NCBI RefSeq assembly: GCF_003333315.1
Contig: NZ_PSYR01000001.1
Location: 1 to 64,000, forward strand
Origin: Acidiferrobacter thiooxydans
Lineage (GTDB): Bacteria; Pseudomonadota; Gammaproteobacteria; Acidiferrobacterales; Acidiferrobacteraceae
Direction of reading: 5' to 3'
DNA length: 64,000 bases
The notes under the pieces were generated by a model, which was given only the letters and a program-made list of their open reading frames with translations, did not search any database and was not told where the DNA came from. A program made the translations under genes and the position numbers. Below are positions 8,961 through 19,100 of the stretch, in pieces (within the stretch, counting starts at the first letter, position 1; every line of letters begins with the position of its first letter).

Positions 8961-10037
8961 ATGCTGAAACAGCCAGAATCCATGAAAGAGCTGGAGGGCC
9001 GGGCTGCCGGGGCGCTTCGCGCGCTTGTGGGCGAGATTCCGGCTCTCAGGCTCGACAAAATCGAGCTTGAACCGGCGCTCCCCCATCACGGGATCGACAT
9101 CGTTGCGCGGATCAACGTGGATGACCGCCCTCACATGCTGGTTTGCGAGATCCAGTCTAGCGGCCAGCCCCGCAATGTGCGGGGGGCCTTGCTCCAGTTG
9201 CGGAACTATGTCGCGCACCTTGGGGAAGATGCGGTCCCGATCTTCATCGCGCCTTATCTTTCCCCGGAGGCCCAGGCGCTTTGCAAAGAGAACAAGGTCG
9301 GATTTATCGACCTCGTCGGCAACGCGCGTCTCGTCTTCGACAACGTCTTTATTGAACGGCGCGTGGCCGAGAGGCCGCCCGCCGATCACCGTCGACTCAG
9401 GTCGCTGTTCAAGCCGAAGTCAGCACAGGTGCTGCGCGTCTTGCTTCGCGACCCCAAACGCGCGTGGCGTGTCACGGAACTGGCAGAGACGGCCGGCGTC
9501 AGCCTCGGCCATGTCAGCAACGTGCGCGCGGGTCTGCTGGACCGTGAATGGGGGCGGGTGTCGGACCAAGGGCTTTTTCTTTCCGAGCCCGATTCCTTGC
9601 TCAATGCCTGGCGCGACGAATACGTGGCCCCGGAGGGAGAGCGGCTTGCCTTCTATACGATCCTTCACGGCAGCGCCTTTGAAGAGGCGGCGCGCCAGGT
9701 TCTTGGTGCGCCGCCGGAGAAAGCAAAAGCGGTCTTCGCGTCTTTCTCCGCGGCACATTGGCTGGCGCCTTATGGCCGCACCGGCACGCAGTATTTTTAT
9801 GCTGATGCGTCGGGGCTGGAACGGCTGAAAGAACGCCTGCAGCTCTCCCTGTCGCCCAAGGGCGAGAATGTCGTCGTCACGGTCCCGAAAGATAGCGGCC
9901 TGTTCCGCGACACAGTCGAACCGGCGCCGGGTGCTGTCTGCACCGGCGCGATCCAGACCTATCTCGATCTTTGGGTCGCGGGCGAACGCGGACGGGAAGC
10001 CGCCGAACATCTGCGGCAGGAGAAGCTTTCATGGTAG
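8961..10037 (+). CDS. AbiEi-like antitoxin of a type IV toxin-antitoxin pair
   Basis: A 358-residue protein with the pattern of the AbiEi/COG4861-like group. An N-terminal nuclease-fold-like segment (V-C-E-I-Q-S-S-G-Q-P-R-N-V-R) is followed around residues 155-190 by a winged helix-turn-helix (V-T-E-L-A-E-T-A-G-V-S-L-G-H-V-S-N) and a C-terminal domain. In type IV systems the antitoxin represses the operon through its HTH and counteracts the nucleotidyltransferase toxin without a stable complex. Its stop overlaps the next start by 7 bases (ATGGTAG), so the pair is translationally coupled. Other possible starts are nearby, for example Met8. The family call is by pattern; related HTH-nuclease proteins are alternatives. 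Confidence 0.7.
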   Translation: MLKQPESMKELEGRAAGALRALVGEIPALRLDKIELEPALPHHGIDIVARINVDDRPHMLVCEIQSSGQPRNVRGALLQLRNYVAHLGEDAVPIFIAPYLSPEAQALCKENKVGFIDLVGNARLVFDNVFIERRVAERPPADHRRLRSLFKPKSAQVLRVLLRDPKRAWRVTELAETAGVSLGHVSNVRAGLLDREWGRVSDQGLFLSEPDSLLNAWRDEYVAPEGERLAFYTILHGSAFEEAARQVLGAPPEKAKAVFASFSAAHWLAPYGRTGTQYFYADASGLERLKERLQLSLSPKGENVVVTVPKDSGLFRDTVEPAPGAVCTGAIQTYLDLWVAGERGREAAEHLRQEKLSW

Positions 10038-10900
10038 AAGTGATTCCTGCCTCCGAACCGCAGTCGGCGGCGGACTATGACGACCGCACGACGGCGGCCG
10101 TTAAGAGCGTGCTGATCGAGATCGGACAAGTGCTCGGCGGCTTCAGGGGGAAGTTTGCCGTCATTGGCGGCGCCGTGCCGTGGCTGTTGCTCGACAACGA
10201 GGAGATGCCGCACGTTGGTTCGCTGGACGTGGACCTCAGCCTCGATGCGGAAGCCTTGGACGATGGCGAGTATGCCACGCTTGTCGAAGCCCTGATGGGT
10301 CACGGTTACGCACAGCGGAAGGATTTCCGGCGGTTCCAGCTCATTCGGGTGGTCCCCGCAACGGACGGCGGCTCGCCGATCGATGTGGTGGTCGATTTCC
10401 TGATGCCGCGAGAGGCCGATATCGTGAAGAACAGCCCTCCGATTATTCCCGACTTTGCGGTGCAGAAAGCGGATGGCGCCGCGCTCGCGACGCGCTTCTA
10501 TCAGTATGTCGCAATCGACGGAGCGATGCCGGACGGTGGACGCAACCGCGTCGAGATTGCGGTCTGCTCCATACCGGCGTTGCTTGCCATGAAAGGTTAC
10601 GCGCTGCAAAATCGCCTCAAGCAGAAGGATGCCTACGACATCTACTACTGCGTCCGTAACTACCCCGGTGGCCCCGGCGCGCTCGCGGAGGCGTGCCGCC
10701 CGTTGCTTGCACATGACATCGCACAGCGAGGCTACGATTACATCGCAGGGAAATTCGACCGCGTCGACGGCTTCGGTCCCGACCGCATCCGCCGCTTCGT
10801 GCAAGACACGAACGCTTTGGGCGACCGCACGGCGGAGCAGTGGCAGCAAGATGCCTTCGGGCAGGTGGACGCGTGGCTGCGCGCGCTGCGCTTAAGGTAG
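10031..10900 (+). CDS. AbiEii-like nucleotidyltransferase toxin
   Basis: A 289-residue nucleotidyltransferase-fold protein. Near the N-terminus V-I-G-G-A-V-P-W-L-L-L is followed by S-L-D-V-D-L-S-L-D, which matches the GG...D-x-D catalytic pattern of the AbiEii/Pol-beta-like superfamily. A lysine-rich segment (K-G-Y-A-L-Q-N-R-L-K-Q-K-D-A-Y-D-I-Y) matches the second conserved block of AbiEii-type proteins. Members of this group inhibit growth by modifying RNA and can provide phage exclusion. Coupling to the upstream AbiEi-like gene by a 7-base overlap supports a functional toxin-antitoxin pair. Confidence 0.72.
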   Translation: MVEVIPASEPQSAADYDDRTTAAVKSVLIEIGQVLGGFRGKFAVIGGAVPWLLLDNEEMPHVGSLDVDLSLDAEALDDGEYATLVEALMGHGYAQRKDFRRFQLIRVVPATDGGSPIDVVVDFLMPREADIVKNSPPIIPDFAVQKADGAALATRFYQYVAIDGAMPDGGRNRVEIAVCSIPALLAMKGYALQNRLKQKDAYDIYYCVRNYPGGPGALAEACRPLLAHDIAQRGYDYIAGKFDRVDGFGPDRIRRFVQDTNALGDRTAEQWQQDAFGQVDAWLRALRLR

Positions 10901-11346: not shown

Positions 11347-13242
11347 GTGAAGAAACGCACGCGTATCCTCGCCATCACAGCGGGCCTCATCGTGGTCCTG
11401 ATCGCGGCCGGGGTCGCCATGCTCCCGGCGCTCATGACCTTAGATGGGGTCAAGGGCCAGATCGTCGAGACCTTGAGCCAGGCGACCGGACGGCCGGTCA
11501 CGATCCACAAGCTCAGTCTGTCGGTCTTCCCCTGGCTTGGTATTCGCCTGGACGGGGCCGTGCTGGGCAATGCCCGCGGCTTCGCGCCCACCCCACTGGC
11601 GCGCGTCGACGATGCGCGCATCGAGGTGCGCCTCCTCCCGCTATTCAACCGTCACATCGTCCTGCGTCGTGTGATCCTGACGGGCCTGCGCCTGAATCTC
11701 CAGGAGAACAAGGCCGGCGTTACGAACTGGGCCACGCTGATTCATGGCCCCAAGCCCTCGCCCCGCACGCCCGCGGCCGCACAGGCCGAGGCGCATGAGG
11801 CGCCGGCCTTTGTCCTCGTGCGCGCCGCCGGGCTTATCGTAAGACACGCGCTTATTCGTTATCACAATGCCCGCACCCACGGTCGCGACACGCTGTCCGA
11901 CCTGACCTTGCGCCTGGGCGCGATCGTACCCGGACGGCCGGTCGCGATCGCCATGCGCGCGCTCCTGAAGACGGCGGGCCACCCCGCCCTTCCGTTCCGC
12001 CTCGGCGCGCAGGCAACCTATGACACGTCCGGGCTCACGCTCGCCCCGTTGCATCTCCGGGTTGCGGATCTCGTTATCCATGGCCGGGTCCACGTGTTGC
12101 ATACGGCGACCGGCCTCAGCGCCCATGGACGGCTGGTCGCGCCCCCCTTCGCCCCCCGCCCGTTGCTTACGGCCCTGGGCCTCCCTTACACGCCTCGCGA
12201 TCCGCATGTCCTGAAGCAGGCCTCGGCGAACATGGGCTTCCATTGGGACCCGTCCGGGCTCACGCTCGCCCCGCTACGCCTGACGCTCGACAAGACCACC
12301 ATGACCGGCCGCATCACCCGGATCGCCCGCCCGCTCCTGTACAAGGTCCATCTCGCCATCGATCACCTGCGGCCCATGTCCTATCTCCCTGTGCCCGCGC
12401 CCGCGAACGCGCCGCCCGCGCCACGCACGGCCTCACCCACGCATGCGGCCCCGGCCCCACCCTCGATGGCCGCAAGCCTCCCGCTGGACGCCACCATCTC
12501 CTGCGCACGTCTCCGCGTCCATGGTCTGGTGGCGACCGATCTCCAGGCCCATATCCGCTCATCCGCCGGCCATGTCGTCGTCAAGCCACTCACTATGTCG
12601 CTCTATCACGGAGGCTTCACGGGGACGATCAAGGCCGTGCTCACCCGTCATCCGCGTACCTGGCGCGTGCGCGGCCTCGTCCGCAACGTGCAGACGAGCG
12701 CCGTGCTGCGCGCCCTGCAGCTCTTTCCGGAGTTCTCGGGAGCCCTGGACGCCGACGTTCATCTCCAAGGTTCGGGGACGAAGCTCGCCGCCATCGAGCG
12801 CAGCGTCTCCGGGCGCCTGACCGCACGCATGCCCAAGGGTGTGCTCCGCGGCATCGACCTCGACTTCATTGCCAAGGACCCCAAGGCGGTGGCGGGCGCC
12901 CACAGGGCCCGGGCCAACCAGGGCACGGCCTTTACCGGCCTGCATGCCAGCGCCACCGTGGCCCGTGGCGTCGTCCACATGCATGCCCTGGCGCTCCATA
13001 CCACGCGCGCCGTCATCCGTGGACACGGCCGCGTGACGCTTGCCACGAAGAGCATCAATTATCTGCTGGAGGTGGCCCTACCGAGCGGCTTCGTCATCCC
13101 GGTGCGCGTTCAGGGTCCGGCCGGTCACATCAAGTTCAATGTCTCATTGAACCGGCTGTTCAGCGACTCGAACCACAACGGTCTCGGCTCCACGCTCCAG
13201 ACCCTGGGCGGCGCGTTGAAACACGCCCTCGGTATTCCTTAG
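11347..13242 (+). CDS. AsmA-family inner-membrane-anchored protein
   Basis: A 631-residue AsmA-type protein: a basic N-terminus, one transmembrane segment (about residues 8-28), then a long periplasmic region with repeated beta-strand pattern and a C-terminal AsmA_2-like part (S-V-S-G-R-L-T-A-R-M, then G-T-A-F-T-G-L-H-A-S-A-T-V). AsmA-like proteins are predicted bridge-type lipid-transfer or assembly proteins that affect the outer membrane and LPS. Translation begins at GTG 11347. A Pro/Ala-rich linker lies near residues 345-375. mutY follows after only 2 bases, so the genes are probably co-transcribed. Confidence 0.85.
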   Translation: MKKRTRILAITAGLIVVLIAAGVAMLPALMTLDGVKGQIVETLSQATGRPVTIHKLSLSVFPWLGIRLDGAVLGNARGFAPTPLARVDDARIEVRLLPLFNRHIVLRRVILTGLRLNLQENKAGVTNWATLIHGPKPSPRTPAAAQAEAHEAPAFVLVRAAGLIVRHALIRYHNARTHGRDTLSDLTLRLGAIVPGRPVAIAMRALLKTAGHPALPFRLGAQATYDTSGLTLAPLHLRVADLVIHGRVHVLHTATGLSAHGRLVAPPFAPRPLLTALGLPYTPRDPHVLKQASANMGFHWDPSGLTLAPLRLTLDKTTMTGRITRIARPLLYKVHLAIDHLRPMSYLPVPAPANAPPAPRTASPTHAAPAPPSMAASLPLDATISCARLRVHGLVATDLQAHIRSSAGHVVVKPLTMSLYHGGFTGTIKAVLTRHPRTWRVRGLVRNVQTSAVLRALQLFPEFSGALDADVHLQGSGTKLAAIERSVSGRLTARMPKGVLRGIDLDFIAKDPKAVAGAHRARANQGTAFTGLHASATVARGVVHMHALALHTTRAVIRGHGRVTLATKSINYLLEVALPSGFVIPVRVQGPAGHIKFNVSLNRLFSDSNHNGLGSTLQTLGGALKHALGIP

Positions 13243-13244
13243 CG

Positions 13245-14258
13245 GTGGATGAGTTCGCGCTCAAGGTGCTTGCCTGGTATCGGCGCCATGGGCGCCACGA
13301 CCTGCCATGGCAGGTCCCCGACCCCTATGTGCGCTGGCTCGCCGAAGTCATGCTGCAGCAGACCACGGTCACTGCCGTCATCCCCTATTTCCAGCGTTTC
13401 CTGGCCGCGTTTCCGAGCGTGCGGGCGCTGGCCCAGGCCTCCCAGGATGAGGTCCTGGCCCAATGGGCTGGTCTTGGCTATTACGCGCGCGCACGCCATC
13501 TCCATGCCGCCGCGCGCGTGATCACCGAACACTATGGCGACGGGTTCCCGCGCACCGCGGACGCCTGGGCGGCCCTGCCCGGGGTCGGGCCGTCGACCGC
13601 CGCGGCGATCGTGGCCTTTGCCTTCGGGGTCCCCGCGCCCATACTCGATGCCAACGTCCGTCGCGTACTGTCCCGTTACCATGCCGTGAGTGGACGAGAC
13701 GCCCGCGCCCTGCGAACGCTCTGGACGCACGCGCGTGATCACACCCCCACGCACGAAGTGGCCGCCTATACCCAGGCCATCATGGACCTGGGCGCACTGG
13801 TCTGCCGCAAGGCCCCGGACTGCGCCGCCTGTCCAGTCGCCGCGGGCTGCGCCTTCGAGGGTGAGGATGCCCCGACCGTGCGCCGCGCGCGCCCCGAGCG
13901 CGCGGTATTCATGGCGGTGATTCGTGACCCCGCCCGTGGCGTCTTGCTGGTACGCAGGCCCTCCCATGGCATCTGGGGCGGGCTCTGGAGCCTGCCGGAG
14001 AGCGTCGAACTCGACGACCTGCCGGCCGTGGTCGCGGCCTTGGGCGTGGACGGCCGAATGGGGATGGCCTGTGCGCCCGTTCACCATACCTTTACCCACT
14101 TCCGGCTAACCATAACGCCGATCCTCGTCGAGGGGGTGTCCCAGGCGTTCGGCGTGGCGGAGCATCATGACGTGATGTGGTATAAAGGGGACGGGTCTGG
14201 ACCCGGGATGCCAGCCCCCATCCGTCGCCTGCTCAACCAATTTCTGGAGGTGCCATGA
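13245..14258 (+). CDS. mutY: A/G-specific adenine DNA glycosylase MutY
   Basis: Removes adenine mispaired with 8-oxoguanine. From the GTG start at 13245 the protein has 337 residues. The catalytic Glu is in A-E34-V-M-L-Q-Q, the helix-hairpin-helix is L-P-G-V-G-P-S-T-A, and the catalytic Asp is in I-L-D135-A-N. The [4Fe-4S] cysteines are at about 187, 193, 196 and 202, with the first spacing one residue shorter than in E. coli. A C-terminal NUDIX-like domain for 8-oxoG recognition follows. It overlaps yggX by 4 bases (ATGA), a widely conserved mutY-yggX pairing. Confidence 0.96.
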
Positions 14259-14530
14259 GTCGAACCGTAGTGTGTGTGAAGCTCAAAAAAGAAGCAGAGG
14301 GATTGGCCTATCCGACCTATCCTGGCGAACTGGGCAAGCGGATTTTCGAGAACGTCTCGAAGGAGGCCTGGGGGCAATGGCTCGGCCACCAGACCATGCT
14401 CATCAACGAGTATCGCCTGAGCCCAATGGATCCCAAGGCACGCAAGTTTCTTGAAAAGGAGATGGAGGCGTATTTCTTCGGGGAGGGCTCGACGATCCCC
14501 GAGGGTTACAAGCCCCCGGGGAGCAAGTAA
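14255..14530 (+). CDS. yggX: Probable Fe(2+)-trafficking protein YggX
   Basis: A 91-residue protein of the YggX family, which protects Fe-S enzymes and DNA from oxidative damage by handling labile iron. The family features are visible: V-V-C-V-K-L-K-K near the N-terminus with the conserved Cys, Y-P-G-E-L-G-K-R-I, and [12 protein letters not shown]. Co-transcription with mutY couples iron handling to oxidative DNA repair and possibly to the MutY cluster. Confidence 0.96.
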
Positions 14531-14538
14531 ACCACCCT

Positions 14539-15264
14539 TTACGCACGCCCCTTTGTCAGGTTCGCCGTAAGGAAGTTGTGCGTCATGCGCCAACCGATCT
14601 CGGTGGCGCGCGCCTCGGCCGGCCCGGTCTTGTCCATGAAGGCGTGTCCGACATCAGGGAATACGCTCATGGTATAGCGCTTGTTGGCACGGCTTAGGCT
14701 CTCGGCCACGCGCGCATGCTCATCGGGTGCTATCGAGGCATCTTTGGCCCCGTAGCAAAGCAGCAAGGGGGCCTGAAGTTGCGGGACGCCGCCCAGGACC
14801 GAGGTACGTCCGAGTCTATCGTCGGGGTTGTCTATGCCGCCCCCATAGAAACAGAGGGTGGCGCGGATGTCCCGCGGGTAACGGGTCGCAGCCAGAAAGG
14901 CCAGGCGCCCGCCGTTGCAAAACCCCATGACCCCAAGCCTATCGGCCACCACGTCCTTGCGCGCCTTAAAATGACCGAGGGCGCGCCCGAAGGCATCCAT
15001 GATCCCGTCGTCGCCCAGGGCCTTGAGCTTCGCGATCGCCCCCTGAAAGTCCGATGACTCAAAAAGCACGCCATCAAAAAAATCGAGCACGAAGGCGGCG
15101 AAACCAAGCCCCGCGAGTCTCTCGCACACAAGCCGCATGTGGTCGTTGACGCCCCATATCTCCATGAACACGATCACGAGCGGTGCGGGTTCGCCTGCCG
15201 GTTTCACAAGGTAGCCCCGTACGCCGGATTCATCCAGATAGGCCGCAGATTTTTGATCGTCCAT
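14539..15264 (-). CDS. Dienelactone hydrolase-family protein
   Basis: A 241-residue alpha/beta hydrolase of the dienelactone hydrolase family. The nucleophile elbow is G-F-C-N-G-G with Cys instead of Ser, as is typical of the family. The acid is in Y-G-A-K-D-A-S-I and the catalytic His in D-V-G-H-A-F-M. The protein is probably cytoplasmic; the substrate is unknown, since no ring-cleavage pathway is nearby. It is convergent with yggX with 8 bases between the stops. Confidence 0.9.
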   Translation of the reverse strand: MDDQKSAAYLDESGVRGYLVKPAGEPAPLVIVFMEIWGVNDHMRLVCERLAGLGFAAFVLDFFDGVLFESSDFQGAIAKLKALGDDGIMDAFGRALGHFKARKDVVADRLGVMGFCNGGRLAFLAATRYPRDIRATLCFYGGGIDNPDDRLGRTSVLGGVPQLQAPLLLCYGAKDASIAPDEHARVAESLSRANKRYTMSVFPDVGHAFMDKTGPAEARATEIGWRMTHNFLTANLTKGRA

Positions 15265-15309: not shown

Positions 15310-16683
15310 CTACGCGCCGACCGCGCAACGCGCAAGCTGTGCCGTGGTCGGCTCCGCGCAGCAGTACCAGGGCTCGGACAACTGCGGGCTCTCGGGGCCG
15401 GCACAATCTGCCGCAAGCCTCGGGACCTCGCGCCCGGCCGCCTCATGCGCCAGTCGCCACAAACCTGCAAAGGTCTCCCACCGCCCCCCGCCTGCGCCAT
15501 CGGCCTGCTCCACCCACGCCTGGACGCGGGCCTGCAAGGTGTCGACGCGCGCGTCAGGATTTGCCCAGGGGTAGCCCAGGATCGCCTCGCTGAACGGCCG
15601 AAGACGCTCACGAAAGCCCGGGATACGTAGGAGATACGAACCTTCGGGGATGAGCAGGCGAATCGCCAGCTGAATGGGCGCCACGCTATTGACGAGCCCT
15701 AGGTCGTGCACGCGCGTCAGCAGGTTCACATAATCGTCCAGGGTTGTCCATGGCGTGAACGGCACGAAGGTCGGGGCAAGCGTCATCCCGGCGGCACGCA
15801 CCAGGGCCACGGCCCGGCCGATGTCCTCCCCCGTGTGTCCCTTGTCGAGATGGCCCAACACCGCATCGTCGAACGACTCCGCGGCACTCGTGATGAACAG
15901 GCAGCCGTACTCGCGTAGTCGCGGCAAGAGGTCGCGATGAGTCAGGATGTGCGAGATCTTGATCGTGGCATCGAAGGTGATGTGCGGCCAACGATCATGC
16001 AGGATCGCGAGCAGGCGCAGGGCGTGGGTGGGCCCATTCAGGAAGTCCGGGTCCCCGAAGGAAAGATGGGTGGCGCCTTGCGCGATCTGCTGCTCCGCGT
16101 CGGCGATTACCACGTCCCGCGGGATCGCCCGGAACCGGCCTTCGTAGACCGGGACCAGCGGGCAGTGACGGCAGAGATACTTGCAGCCGCGCGAGGCCTC
16201 CACGAAGCCCACGGTCTTACGCTCGCCACCCGGCAACCGGAGATGCGCGTAGCGCGCCAGGGGAGGAAGGCTCGTGCGATCCGGGATCATGAACCTAACC
16301 TTCGCAACGCCCTCCCCCGGCTTGTCGCCCGCGATCAGCGCGAGCAGGTCGTTCTCGAATTCCGGGCCCAGAACCACGTCGACGCCGAGACCCTCCAGAA
16401 GCGCCCGGTTCGGCGGGGCATAGACCCCGTAACAGACGATGCGAGCCCCTCTGGCCTTGCGCCGCAGTTCCGGCAGTAGGCCCATCGCAATGCGCGTGGC
16501 GGTATGCATGCCCAGCGCCACCCCGATGACCTGGAAGCTGTCGAGGCCCGCCCTGGGAAGGGTGGCGAGCGACAAATCGACCAGAACCACCTCGTGGCCG
16601 CGCGCGCGCAGCAACGCCGCGGGATGGGCCAGCGAGTGGGGTTGACGACCAAGCTCATAGGGGCTAATCAAAAGCACTTTCAT
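15310..16683 (-). CDS. CCAEP-tail B12-binding radical SAM protein
   Basis: A 457-residue protein from the ATG at 16683, the start chosen because M-K-V-L-L-I-S-P-Y-E-L-G is a typical B12-domain N-terminus (the frame extends 62 low-quality codons upstream). An N-terminal cobalamin-binding-like domain precedes the radical SAM core with C-K-Y-L-C-R-H-C, the CxxxCxxC site for the [4Fe-4S] cluster. The C-terminus ends W-Y-C-C-A-E-P followed by a short tail. This places it in the group known as CUAEP/CCAEP-tail radical SAM (seleno)proteins, here with Cys in the position that is selenocysteine in other members. The substrate is unknown. No obvious precursor peptide or partner is adjacent. Confidence 0.85.
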   Translation of the reverse strand: MKVLLISPYELGRQPHSLAHPAALLRARGHEVVLVDLSLATLPRAGLDSFQVIGVALGMHTATRIAMGLLPELRRKARGARIVCYGVYAPPNRALLEGLGVDVVLGPEFENDLLALIAGDKPGEGVAKVRFMIPDRTSLPPLARYAHLRLPGGERKTVGFVEASRGCKYLCRHCPLVPVYEGRFRAIPRDVVIADAEQQIAQGATHLSFGDPDFLNGPTHALRLLAILHDRWPHITFDATIKISHILTHRDLLPRLREYGCLFITSAAESFDDAVLGHLDKGHTGEDIGRAVALVRAAGMTLAPTFVPFTPWTTLDDYVNLLTRVHDLGLVNSVAPIQLAIRLLIPEGSYLLRIPGFRERLRPFSEAILGYPWANPDARVDTLQARVQAWVEQADGAGGGRWETFAGLWRLAHEAAGREVPRLAADCAGPESPQLSEPWYCCAEPTTAQLARCAVGA

Positions 16684-17006: not shown

Positions 17007-17082
<76 letters not shown>

Positions 17083-17702
17083 ATAAAAACAAAGACTTAC
17101 GGCACATCCCGCAAAATCCCATTTTCCCCGCGTAAGCACTATGTAAGCCCTTAGGGCGACTTTGGGGGGTCTGGCACGCCTACGGATACGTTCCCTAATG
17201 TTCGGAAACGTTATGCTCGTCGCCAGGCGGCTCATCCCCCATCGCCCCCCGGGTTGAGCGCCAATCATAATTACCCGCCCGCTCGTCTCGGTTTCGCGGG
17301 GGAGGCGTGCGGCCAACAATTTCACGAATAAAGCCGGTTCATCGCGCGCGATCTGCATATGCCGCTCGACACCGCCAAGCGCCGCGAAGGCGTCGCGGTC
17401 GGTGCTTGCGCCAGGCCATCGGTGATCCGCGCCAGAGCCGAGCGGCGAAGAGCACGCGAACGGCGCATGCGGGCGGCTGCCGTCATGGCGGGCTTGAAGA
17501 CCGGCTTCCGCCCGGCCACGCGTCCCTCTATTTTCGTAACGGTTGCGGAATAGCACATCACGTCTCGGCTTCCTCGATCTTCCGCTTCAGTCGGGTCGCC
17601 TCCATCTCTAAAAGGCAAGGTGTCGCATGGCCTGCCGCCGCAGGTGGTCGCGCCAGTCGTACTCACCCGATACGCGGTCAGCGACGCGGGCCATCGGGTC
17701 TA
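17083..17702. other. Decayed stretch after tRNA-Phe, gene remnant only
   Basis: No intact gene. On the minus strand a frame from about 17558 begins M-C-Y-S-A, the start typical of one branch of SRAP/HMCES-type proteins in which Cys2 is catalytic, but the rest of the frame (to 17322) is not recognisable as that family. It is probably a fragment within the integrative-element remains. Confidence 0.3.
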
Positions 17703-17975
17703 TTATGCGATGCGTCGTACCTTGGGCGGGTTCTTGCCAACCTGCCAAAGGTCGTATTGCGCTTGCTGCACGAGCCAGCTTTCGGCGCTTCCGCCAAATG
17801 CCAGGGAGAGGCGCAGGGCCATGGTCGGGGCAATCCCGGTATGCCCGTTCAACAACTCGGAGAGCGCCTTGCGCGTCACACCCAGGGCCTCGGCCGCATC
17901 TGTAACCGACAGGCCCAAGGGTTCCAGGCAGAGCTCCCTTATGGTCTCGCCGGGGTGAGGGGGGTTGTGCATCAT
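17703..17975 (-). CDS. higA: HigA-family antitoxin (XRE-type HTH)
   Basis: A 90-residue protein with the HigA/VapI-type layout: H-P-G-E-T-I-R-E at the N-terminus, then a helix-turn-helix ([18 protein letters not shown]), then [17 protein letters not shown]. It neutralises HigB and represses the operon. Two adjacent ATG codons (17975 and 17972) are possible starts. It lies 11 bases after the restored end of higB, in the usual toxin-first order for higBA. Confidence 0.85.
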
Positions 17976-17986
17976 GGCAAGCTCCT

Positions 17987-18266
17987 TCACTGATAATCGA
18001 GGTAATCCACATCGTGGGCTTCCGCCCCTTCGAACCGAAAGATAAGCCGCCAATTGCCCCGATACGTTGACGGCCCAATAACCGTGCCACGTGCCGCTCA
18101 ATGCGTGTAGACGTGCCCCCGGCAGGTCCATATCCTCGGGCTTGCTCGCAGCGTCCAGGCGAGCGAGAAGCGCACGCAGCCGCTTGGCATGGTCGGCAAC
18201 TATCCCGGCCTTGCTGCCCGTCTCGCAGAACGGCTTGAGGTCCTTGTGCCGGAAGCTCTGGATCAT
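17987..18266 (-). pseudogene. higB: HigB-family toxin, frameshifted
   Basis: RelE-superfamily mRNA interferase. The N-terminal part ([10 protein letters not shown], then [17 protein letters not shown]) is followed in another frame by [10 protein letters not shown] and A-H-D-V-D-Y-L-D-Y, the canonical C-terminus. The break is at the C4 run 18057-18060 on the plus strand; here one base too many is present, the opposite sense to most frameshifts in the window. As written, the frame runs through into higA, giving an artificial fusion. Confidence 0.8.
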
Positions 18267-18329
18267 GCCGTCACCTAATGGGTTACAGTATAAGACGTAC
18301 GGGGAGACGCGCCGAGCCCCTTTGCGGGG

Positions 18330-19100
18330 TTACAACGCCCGGTCCAGGAGGGCCACGACCTCGGCGCTCTCGCGTACCTTGGCCGCCTTCAAGACAAAAG
18401 TCCTCGATCCGTCCATGGGGGTGCGCAGGCGCTCCGTGGTGATTACCAGATAGCCGCCGGTCACGTCTCCTTGGGTCTTGTGGTTCACGAGGCGCTTTAA
18501 GGCCGGAATGTCCAAGGATTCCGCTCATGGCGGCGAAGGTCCGCCGCAGGTCATGGGCCATGAACTTGACGCCGGATGTCTTTGCGATGCTTTCCAGCGA
18601 GTAGTGCGGGTTGCCGATCTGCCCTAGCGCGCTGGTAAATACGAGGCCGCCCAGGTGCTCGCGGGTGTTCAGTAGGGCCGCCACATACGGCCCCCTTGGG
18701 GAGCGCTTGGCGTGAGCGGTTCTTGGTGTTGTGTGCGGTCAGCGTCTTGGCAATGAAATTCACGTCCGCCCATTTGAGCGTGCGGCCTCCCCCTTTGCGT
18801 AGGCCGGCGAGCATGAGGGTGCGGAAATAATCCCCATAAGCGGTATTGCGTAACCGGGTCACGGCCTCCCACCACGCGGCCAGTTGGTGCGGCTGGATCA
18901 CGCTTTGCCGCAGCGCGACGCGATATCAGGAGCGGGCGCGGGACAGCACCTTCACGGCGTTGTCGGCAAGGACGGGCTGTCCCCCGGTGTCGGTGTAGCG
19001 ACCCGCCGCGAAAGTGAGCAGGGCCCGCAGGTAACCGCCCCACTTGTTCGCGCTGGTCGTTGTCTCCCGGCCTATCTTCCGATGGCGGGAAAATCATTTT
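18330..19100 (-). pseudogene. Tyrosine-type integrase, broken
   Basis: Pieces of a phage-type tyrosine recombinase lie in sequence on the minus strand. An N-terminal core-binding part (W-G-G-Y-L-R-A-L-L-T-F-A) ends at an in-frame TGA where W is expected. The same frame then continues with I-Q-P-H-Q-L-A-A-W-W-E-A-V and G-L-R-K-G-G-G-R-T-L-K-W. A second frame carries H-D-L-R-R-T-F-A-A-M (the H-x-L-R-R box), and a third carries K-R-L-V-N-H-K-T-Q-G-D-V-T-G-G-Y with the active Tyr. At least three lesions make it inactive. It lies 1.3 kb from tRNA-Phe, its probable integration site. Confidence 0.8.

Follow-up and report, generated by a model that had tools for sequence, protein, structure and literature searches.

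The radical SAM gene at 15310-16683 of the window (the whole 64,000-nucleotide stretch of Acidiferrobacter thiooxydans DNA analyzed here) belongs to the CUAEP/CCAEP-tail family, and the recurrence of an amino-acid ligase and an iron helper beside members of this family in three bacterial phyla points to an undescribed pathway. In its fullest form, which we hold to be speculative and on the doubtful side, the proposal is of a widespread pathway comprising the CUAEP/CCAEP enzyme, an ATP-grasp ligase and either YggX or Nfu, with a peptide containing a methionine-like amino acid as product and a part in iron or Fe-S protection. The amino acid would perhaps carry selenium, sulfur or a metalloid.

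The reading frame of the gene runs exactly from 15310 to 16683 on the minus strand, ATG to TAG, with 457 codons for amino acids, and the 457-residue protein ends in SEPWYCCAEPTTAQLARCAVGA. It matches the equivalog NF040546 (CUAEP/CCAEP-tail radical SAM (seleno)protein) at 556.5 bits, past the cut-off of 500, and is the sole NF040546 match above cut-off in the window genome. Both features of the radical SAM superfamily are present: the domain itself (PF04055, residues 162-301, 15781-16200, minus strand; 41.3 bits, cut-off 29.5) and a CxxxCxxC motif, C167/C171/C174 (16162-16185, minus strand), read from the translation. The three cysteines are putative 4Fe-4S ligands by analogy, and the motif (residues 167-174) is invariant in 158 of 158 relatives as well as in all four RCCLKC-tail proteins introduced below. 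The tail, SEPWYCCAEP in translation (residues 436-445, 15349-15378, minus strand), holds the adjacent pair C441-C442, encoded by TGC TGC (15363-15358); the window gene is thus a Cys form with no in-frame UGA. The radical SAM protein of an Acidiferrobacteraceae locus (L021) is 66% identical to it. A first-pass annotation had assigned the protein to the CCAEP-tail radical SAM family, an assignment borne out by the NF040546 score and by CCAEP at 441-445, and had called its substrate undefined, in keeping with the NCBIfam entry: the family is named there, by a name that states no reaction and gives no substrate. A literature search on CUAEP, CCAEP and RCCLKC, with most subscription journals outside its coverage, found no paper.

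The family was sampled as 161 non-duplicate loci: 80 from a contig scan (the 80 best among 559 relatives; the tail is part of one of the two scan patterns), 79 from whole-profile searches, one on a Thermomicrobium plasmid, grouped with Chloroflexota, and that of the window itself. For the contig-scan loci, record titles served to assign the phylum. Regions were taken for 36 of the 40 Acidobacteriota matches and 40 of the 63 Chloroflexota matches. One exact duplicate (L167, identical to L026) was dropped, bringing 162 loci to 161, and near-identical genomes were otherwise kept. A loose tail pattern, in which both residues of the pair and position 437 were free and W, A, E and P partly fixed, matched in 158 of the 161 loci, once as CCSEP; the three misses comprise two contig ends and one loss of the tail (L163). 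Among the profile-search loci alone the tail was found in 76 of 79. The pair reads Cys-Cys in 102 loci, Cys-Sec in 55 and Sec-Cys in one, and is unreadable in three, so that across the 158 readable tails position 441 is Cys in 157 and Sec in one, and position 442 Cys in 103 and Sec in 55. E437, W439, E444 and P445 are invariant in these 158 tails, E437 and the pair having been left unconstrained by the pattern. Conservation this strong makes a catalytic or binding role for the tail likely, in line with the first-pass annotation, which took the tail to be probably functional and named a lack of conservation among homologues as the finding that would speak against it; the tail proved to be kept in 158 of 161 loci. 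The description of the group as rare did not hold, since the gene is found in 40 of 247 Acidobacteriota genomes and 63 of 251 Chloroflexota genomes.

The same annotation stated that some relatives encode selenocysteine where the present protein has cysteine, and this is what the sample contains, with Sec at 56 of 161 loci and TGC TGC in the window. In 55 loci the in-frame UGA takes the place of the second tail Cys; in one (L087) it takes that of the first. A covarying 6-bp hairpin lies 3' of the UGA, and most of its pairs occur in several base combinations among Sec sequences. Each pair forms in 38-49 of 49 Sec sequences, compared with 28-53 of 93 Cys-form sequences, these counts being taken over sequences with the usual CAG/CAA spacing. 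No consensus hairpin structure was predicted from the 93 Cys windows. The stem is visible by eye in the Sec-Cys gene L087, and the Sec forms (54 windows, of 55) fold locally into more stable structures than the Cys forms (102 windows; p 5e-10). On these sequence grounds, selenocysteine in the relatives is genuine. At least 14 interchanges between Sec and Cys are counted on the FastTree tree (trees here are FastTree trees of the first 430 residues of the proteins), and all 71 Pseudomonadota loci in the sample are Cys forms. Of five Sec genomes, three (G042, G043, G044) have a SelB match above cut-off; G045 has a sub-cut-off match over positions 87-578 at a contig start, G041 yields fragments only, and the Thermomicrobium plasmid record, which comes without its chromosome, has none. 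SelB also scores above cut-off in three of five Cys-form genomes other than that of the window (G046, G047, G048), so having SelB does not oblige a genome to use the Sec form. In the window genome no SelB match is over cut-off, the two lower ones, over positions 2-267, being EF-Tu-like. Residue 449 is a further point of interest: a Gln codon sits at the hairpin loop of Sec genes, and Gln is found there in 144 of 158 members including Cys forms, Q449 perhaps surviving from an ancestor with Sec.

Clustering of neighboring ORFs revealed an ATP-grasp protein whose C-terminal domain is that of L-amino-acid ligases (LAL_C2). By profile, this ligase lies within 7 kb of the radical SAM gene in 95 of the 161 loci, directly downstream and on the same strand in 62 of them (neighbor frequencies throughout are raw counts over the 161 loci), and its linkage changes 27 times on the tree. 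Among solved structures, BL00235 (3vot; 242 bits) comes nearest to the ligase profile, and the ligase of locus L022 aligns with it at Z 39.4 and rmsd 3.1 over 401 residues; the products listed for BL00235 in PMC6920838 are Met-Gly and Met-Met. Across 251 Chloroflexota genomes, CUAEP genes occur in 63 and the ligase in 82, the ligase being found in 62 of the 63 CUAEP genomes vs. 20 of the 188 others. The 198 genomes of the window's class include 11 with CUAEP and 38 with the ligase (nine of the 11 CUAEP genomes vs. 29 of 187 others). The 41 nearest genomes include 31 with the ligase, 22 with CUAEP (20 above cut-off plus two fragments) and 16 with both, and the association is absent (p 0.73; co-occurrence p values are from Fisher tests, which ignore shared ancestry). 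The ligase is missing there from six of the 22 CUAEP genomes and found in 15 of the 19 non-CUAEP genomes, so that each of the two can occur without the other. The window genome encodes its ligase elsewhere (C1:1283849-1285066; 469.2 bits), divergent to a second yggX that scores 94.3 bits over profile positions 3-78 of 88. When ligase loci were opened, five from CUAEP genomes and 11 from genomes without it, yggX was nearby in 15 of the 16; at the L247 ligase locus there was no yggX in the 4.6 kb upstream, the usual yggX side. No plasmid record matched the L022 ligase query at E 1e-30. As a separate observation, several Chloroflexota ligase matches contain one in-frame stop, TGA in G514, G358, G447, G431, G415 and G313 and TAG in G369, G509, G477 and G455, for which a selenoprotein ligase, a frameshift or a match-end effect are candidate explanations.

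What YggX does in iron and Fe-S metabolism has been a long-standing question. The yggX gene of the window (PF04362 Iron_traffic, 14255-14530, plus strand; 145.5 bits, and 142.4 bits to NF003817) is convergent with the radical SAM gene at a distance of 0.8 kb. The first-pass annotation had seen no adjoining partner, and had suggested a comparison of neighborhoods as a check. With yggX 0.8 kb away, and with the ligase and YggX or Nfu recurring across phyla in the 161 loci compared, that statement has to be revised. Within 7 kb of the radical SAM gene, YggX occurs in 62 of 161 loci, Nfu in 33 and both in none, where 12.7 loci with both would be expected (without tree correction); ligase, YggX and Nfu are all missing at 40 loci. 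On the tree, YggX linkage changes 19 times, Nfu linkage nine times, and a switch between YggX and Nfu occurs five times. Because there are only these five changes and a test of independent pairs on the tree was not significant, the mutual exclusion of YggX and Nfu is suggestive only. Strong YggX matches (at least 97 bits in Chloroflexota and at least 104 bits in Acidobacteriota, weaker matches being set apart) are found in 41 Chloroflexota genomes, 39 of which have CUAEP. The 12 Nfu-linked Chloroflexota genomes include none with strong YggX and one, G393, with a weak paralogue. In 24 Chloroflexota genomes, two of them with CUAEP, the best YggX match is a short, divergent paralogue scoring 43-65 bits. 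The 247 Acidobacteriota genomes comprise 40 with CUAEP, 47 with strong YggX and 17 with both (p 2e-4). YggX is near-universal in the window's class (184 of 198 genomes), and its presence there says little; two or more YggX occur in 34 of these genomes, and 27 of the 34 also encode the ligase (p 3e-18). The reference list of PMC8593673 includes a title that names yggX, gshA and the labile iron pool, and no paper on YggX together with ATP-grasp was found in a search with most subscription journals outside its coverage.

Several other neighbors were considered and set aside. A dienelactone-hydrolase-family gene (14539-15264, minus strand; PF01738, 140.3 bits) lies 45 bp downstream of the radical SAM gene on the same strand, and such a gene adjoins the radical SAM gene in five of ten searched loci of the window's family (L012, L013, L021, L263, L264). 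It was rejected as a family-wide partner since only one of the other 160 sampled loci (L021) has it. Genes encoding a GBBH-like protein, a fructosamine kinase, a formyltransferase, a POT transporter and a DUF169 protein, the last four identified from one member each, are lineage-limited or few in number; the GBBH-like gene is upstream of the radical SAM gene in 22 of 82 first-round loci, all in Pseudomonadota. Antisense ORF clusters among the first-run neighbors were dismissed as frame artefacts. The POT-family peptide transporter gene adjoins the radical SAM gene in nine Acidobacteriota loci and lies 2.3 kb off in a tenth (L142, L144, L147, L150, L153, L154, L156, L159, L162, L096), a placement that would suit a peptide product. 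In the window, mutY (13176-14258, plus strand; TIGR01084, 290.7 bits, cut-off 286.5) lies directly upstream of yggX, probably as background gene order. A tRNA-Phe gene (17007-17082) is followed by ORFs that look by eye like pieces of a tyrosine integrase (17007-19097 in all), which suggests an eroded integrated element beside the radical SAM locus, and a single ORF at 17703-18266 (minus strand) reads in translation as a HigB-type toxin that continues in frame into a HigA-type antitoxin, seemingly a fusion of the pair. Overlapping genes for proteins of 358 and about 289 amino acids at 8961-10900 resemble an AbiE-type pair by eye, with no NCBIfam match.

The next-best family for the window protein is NF040542 (ArsL, the radical SAM enzyme of arsinothricin biosynthesis), at 236.3 bits and below its cut-off of 450, and the enzyme is distantly related to ArsL. 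In PMC8552651, ArsL is predicted to move the aminocarboxypropyl (ACP) group of SAM onto As(III). This group is an alpha-amino-acid fragment, so its transfer gives a gamma-substituted 2-aminobutyrate, as methionine likewise is. The set used for comparison consists of four plasmid proteins, one annotated arsL (L015) and three named RCCLKC-tail radical SAM protein; ATP-grasp genes are present at three of these four loci and missing near the arsL-annotated one. ACP chemistry, the methionine-containing products of BL00235 and the ATP-grasp genes at RCCLKC loci together fit a scheme in which a methionine-like amino acid is made and then ligated. The mechanism we tentatively favor, at somewhat less than an even chance, is the following. 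The [4Fe-4S] cluster at C167/C171/C174 would cleave SAM, and the ArsL-like enzyme would use SAM to assemble a methionine-like amino acid on an acceptor gripped by the tail pair. This acceptor may be a soft element or a chalcogen held on the Cys-Cys or Cys-Sec pair, which would explain why Sec can occupy either position. The ATP-grasp L-amino-acid ligase would then couple the resulting amino acid to another, giving a peptide, while YggX, or Nfu in other lineages, would supply or protect the Fe-S cluster of the enzyme. For the CUAEP enzyme both the ACP-transfer chemistry and the substrate are proposals, and ACP transfer is itself a prediction for ArsL.

The predicted fold of the enzyme lends itself to another reading. 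An AlphaFold2 model (mean pLDDT 92.4, 66 sequences) compared as a whole is nearest to AprD4 (6fd2; Z 27.1, rmsd 3.6, 399 aligned), with OxsB (Z 25.2, rmsd 3.9, 411 aligned) and MgmA (24.5) tied in the next place and TsrM (23.8) following. A profile search for solved relatives likewise gave AprD4 and MgmA, and a single-sequence search for one found none. The matches to AprD4, OxsB and TsrM begin at model residue 1, and an N-terminal B12-binding-like domain at about residues 1-120 (16324-16683, minus strand) may be proposed from this fold and from a PF02310 match of 20.0 bits, under the cut-off of 32.1. Of the earlier label B12-radical SAM, the radical SAM part stands, and the B12 part comes down to that sub-threshold match and the likeness of fold. 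All four enzymes are of the deoxyadenosyl or cobalamin type, in part going by their entry titles. The tail pair might act as a redox relay, reducing an intermediate or resetting an enzyme of ordinary 5'-deoxyadenosyl or cobalamin-methyl chemistry in the manner of the Cys-Sec end of thioredoxin reductase, a reading also suited to Sec at either place of an adjacent pair. Such a relay is possible, though on the unlikely side, since both tail cysteines and 38 of 64 conserved positions are common to the RCCLKC-tail proteins, and since on its own it leaves the amino-acid ligase unexplained.

If homology to ArsL and the common CC pair are weighted most heavily, the enzyme could be an ArsL-like arsenic enzyme making an arsinothricin-type amino acid that a ligase then turns into a peptide, as the ATP-grasp genes at three RCCLKC-tail loci would allow. 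The neighborhoods make this improbable. Searches with queries from ArsL-type loci (ArsB, ArsR, ArsQ, ArsM, ArsN1, an aquaporin, transporters and others) by blastp found ArsR, ArsB, ArsQ and ArsN1 near CUAEP genes at none of 82 loci and ArsM-like ORFs at two (L041, L088), with one or two queries per gene and ORFs of at least 90 aa, a search that very short or diverged genes could escape. The score under the ArsL cut-off and the proline that takes the place of the third tail Cys in all 158 members also weigh against an arsenic enzyme. With almost no ars genes by the 82 loci, an arsenic role was rejected as the default, and the acceptor of ArsL cannot simply be transferred to CUAEP.

That the neighbors are incidental and the enzyme works alone in an unrelated pathway has a small chance of being right: it would account for the 40 loci without ligase, YggX or Nfu and for the missing ligase association in the 41 nearest genomes, but the linkage recurs in several gene orders across three phyla, and the ligase is found in all but one of the 63 Chloroflexota CUAEP genomes. 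Modification of a protein, with YggX as the candidate substrate, is very improbable in spite of YggX within 7 kb at 62 of 161 loci, a same-strand yggX immediately upstream at 20 of 43 Chloroflexota-group loci and CUAEP in 39 of the 41 strong-YggX Chloroflexota genomes, because Nfu stands instead at 33 of 161 loci, strong YggX is missing from all 12 Nfu-linked Chloroflexota genomes, and YggX is common without CUAEP. Should the pathway of radical SAM enzyme, ligase and YggX or Nfu be real, YggX would serve it as an Fe-S helper, in a role equivalent to that of Nfu. Roughly one sixth to one quarter of the sampled genomes of the two phyla have these (seleno)enzymes, whose name leaves the reaction unstated, and the neighboring genes give the family a concrete, testable pathway, consisting of a radical SAM step and amino-acid ligation, together with a tie to YggX.

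Within NF040546 the window protein is a Cys-form member in which no difference from the family was found: it shares the tail, the CxxxCxxC motif and a score above cut-off. The likeness to AprD4, OxsB, MgmA and TsrM is one of fold over the whole model, at an identity of 17-20%, and none of the four is known to have a tail Cys pair. The partner ligase has its best match, by both sequence and fold, in BL00235, at 23% identity. As for the ArsL type, all four RCCLKC-tail proteins have the same residue at 38 of the 64 positions that are at least 97% conserved in the 158 CUAEP members; the shared positions include the cluster cysteines, F209, D211, D213, E269, K281, R342, W373 and C441, and the column of the second tail Cys also holds Cys in four of four. 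The two types differ in that the region before the tail is longer in the CUAEP/CCAEP protein, and in that the RCCLKC tail of ArsL has a third Cys where CUAEP/CCAEP members have Pro.
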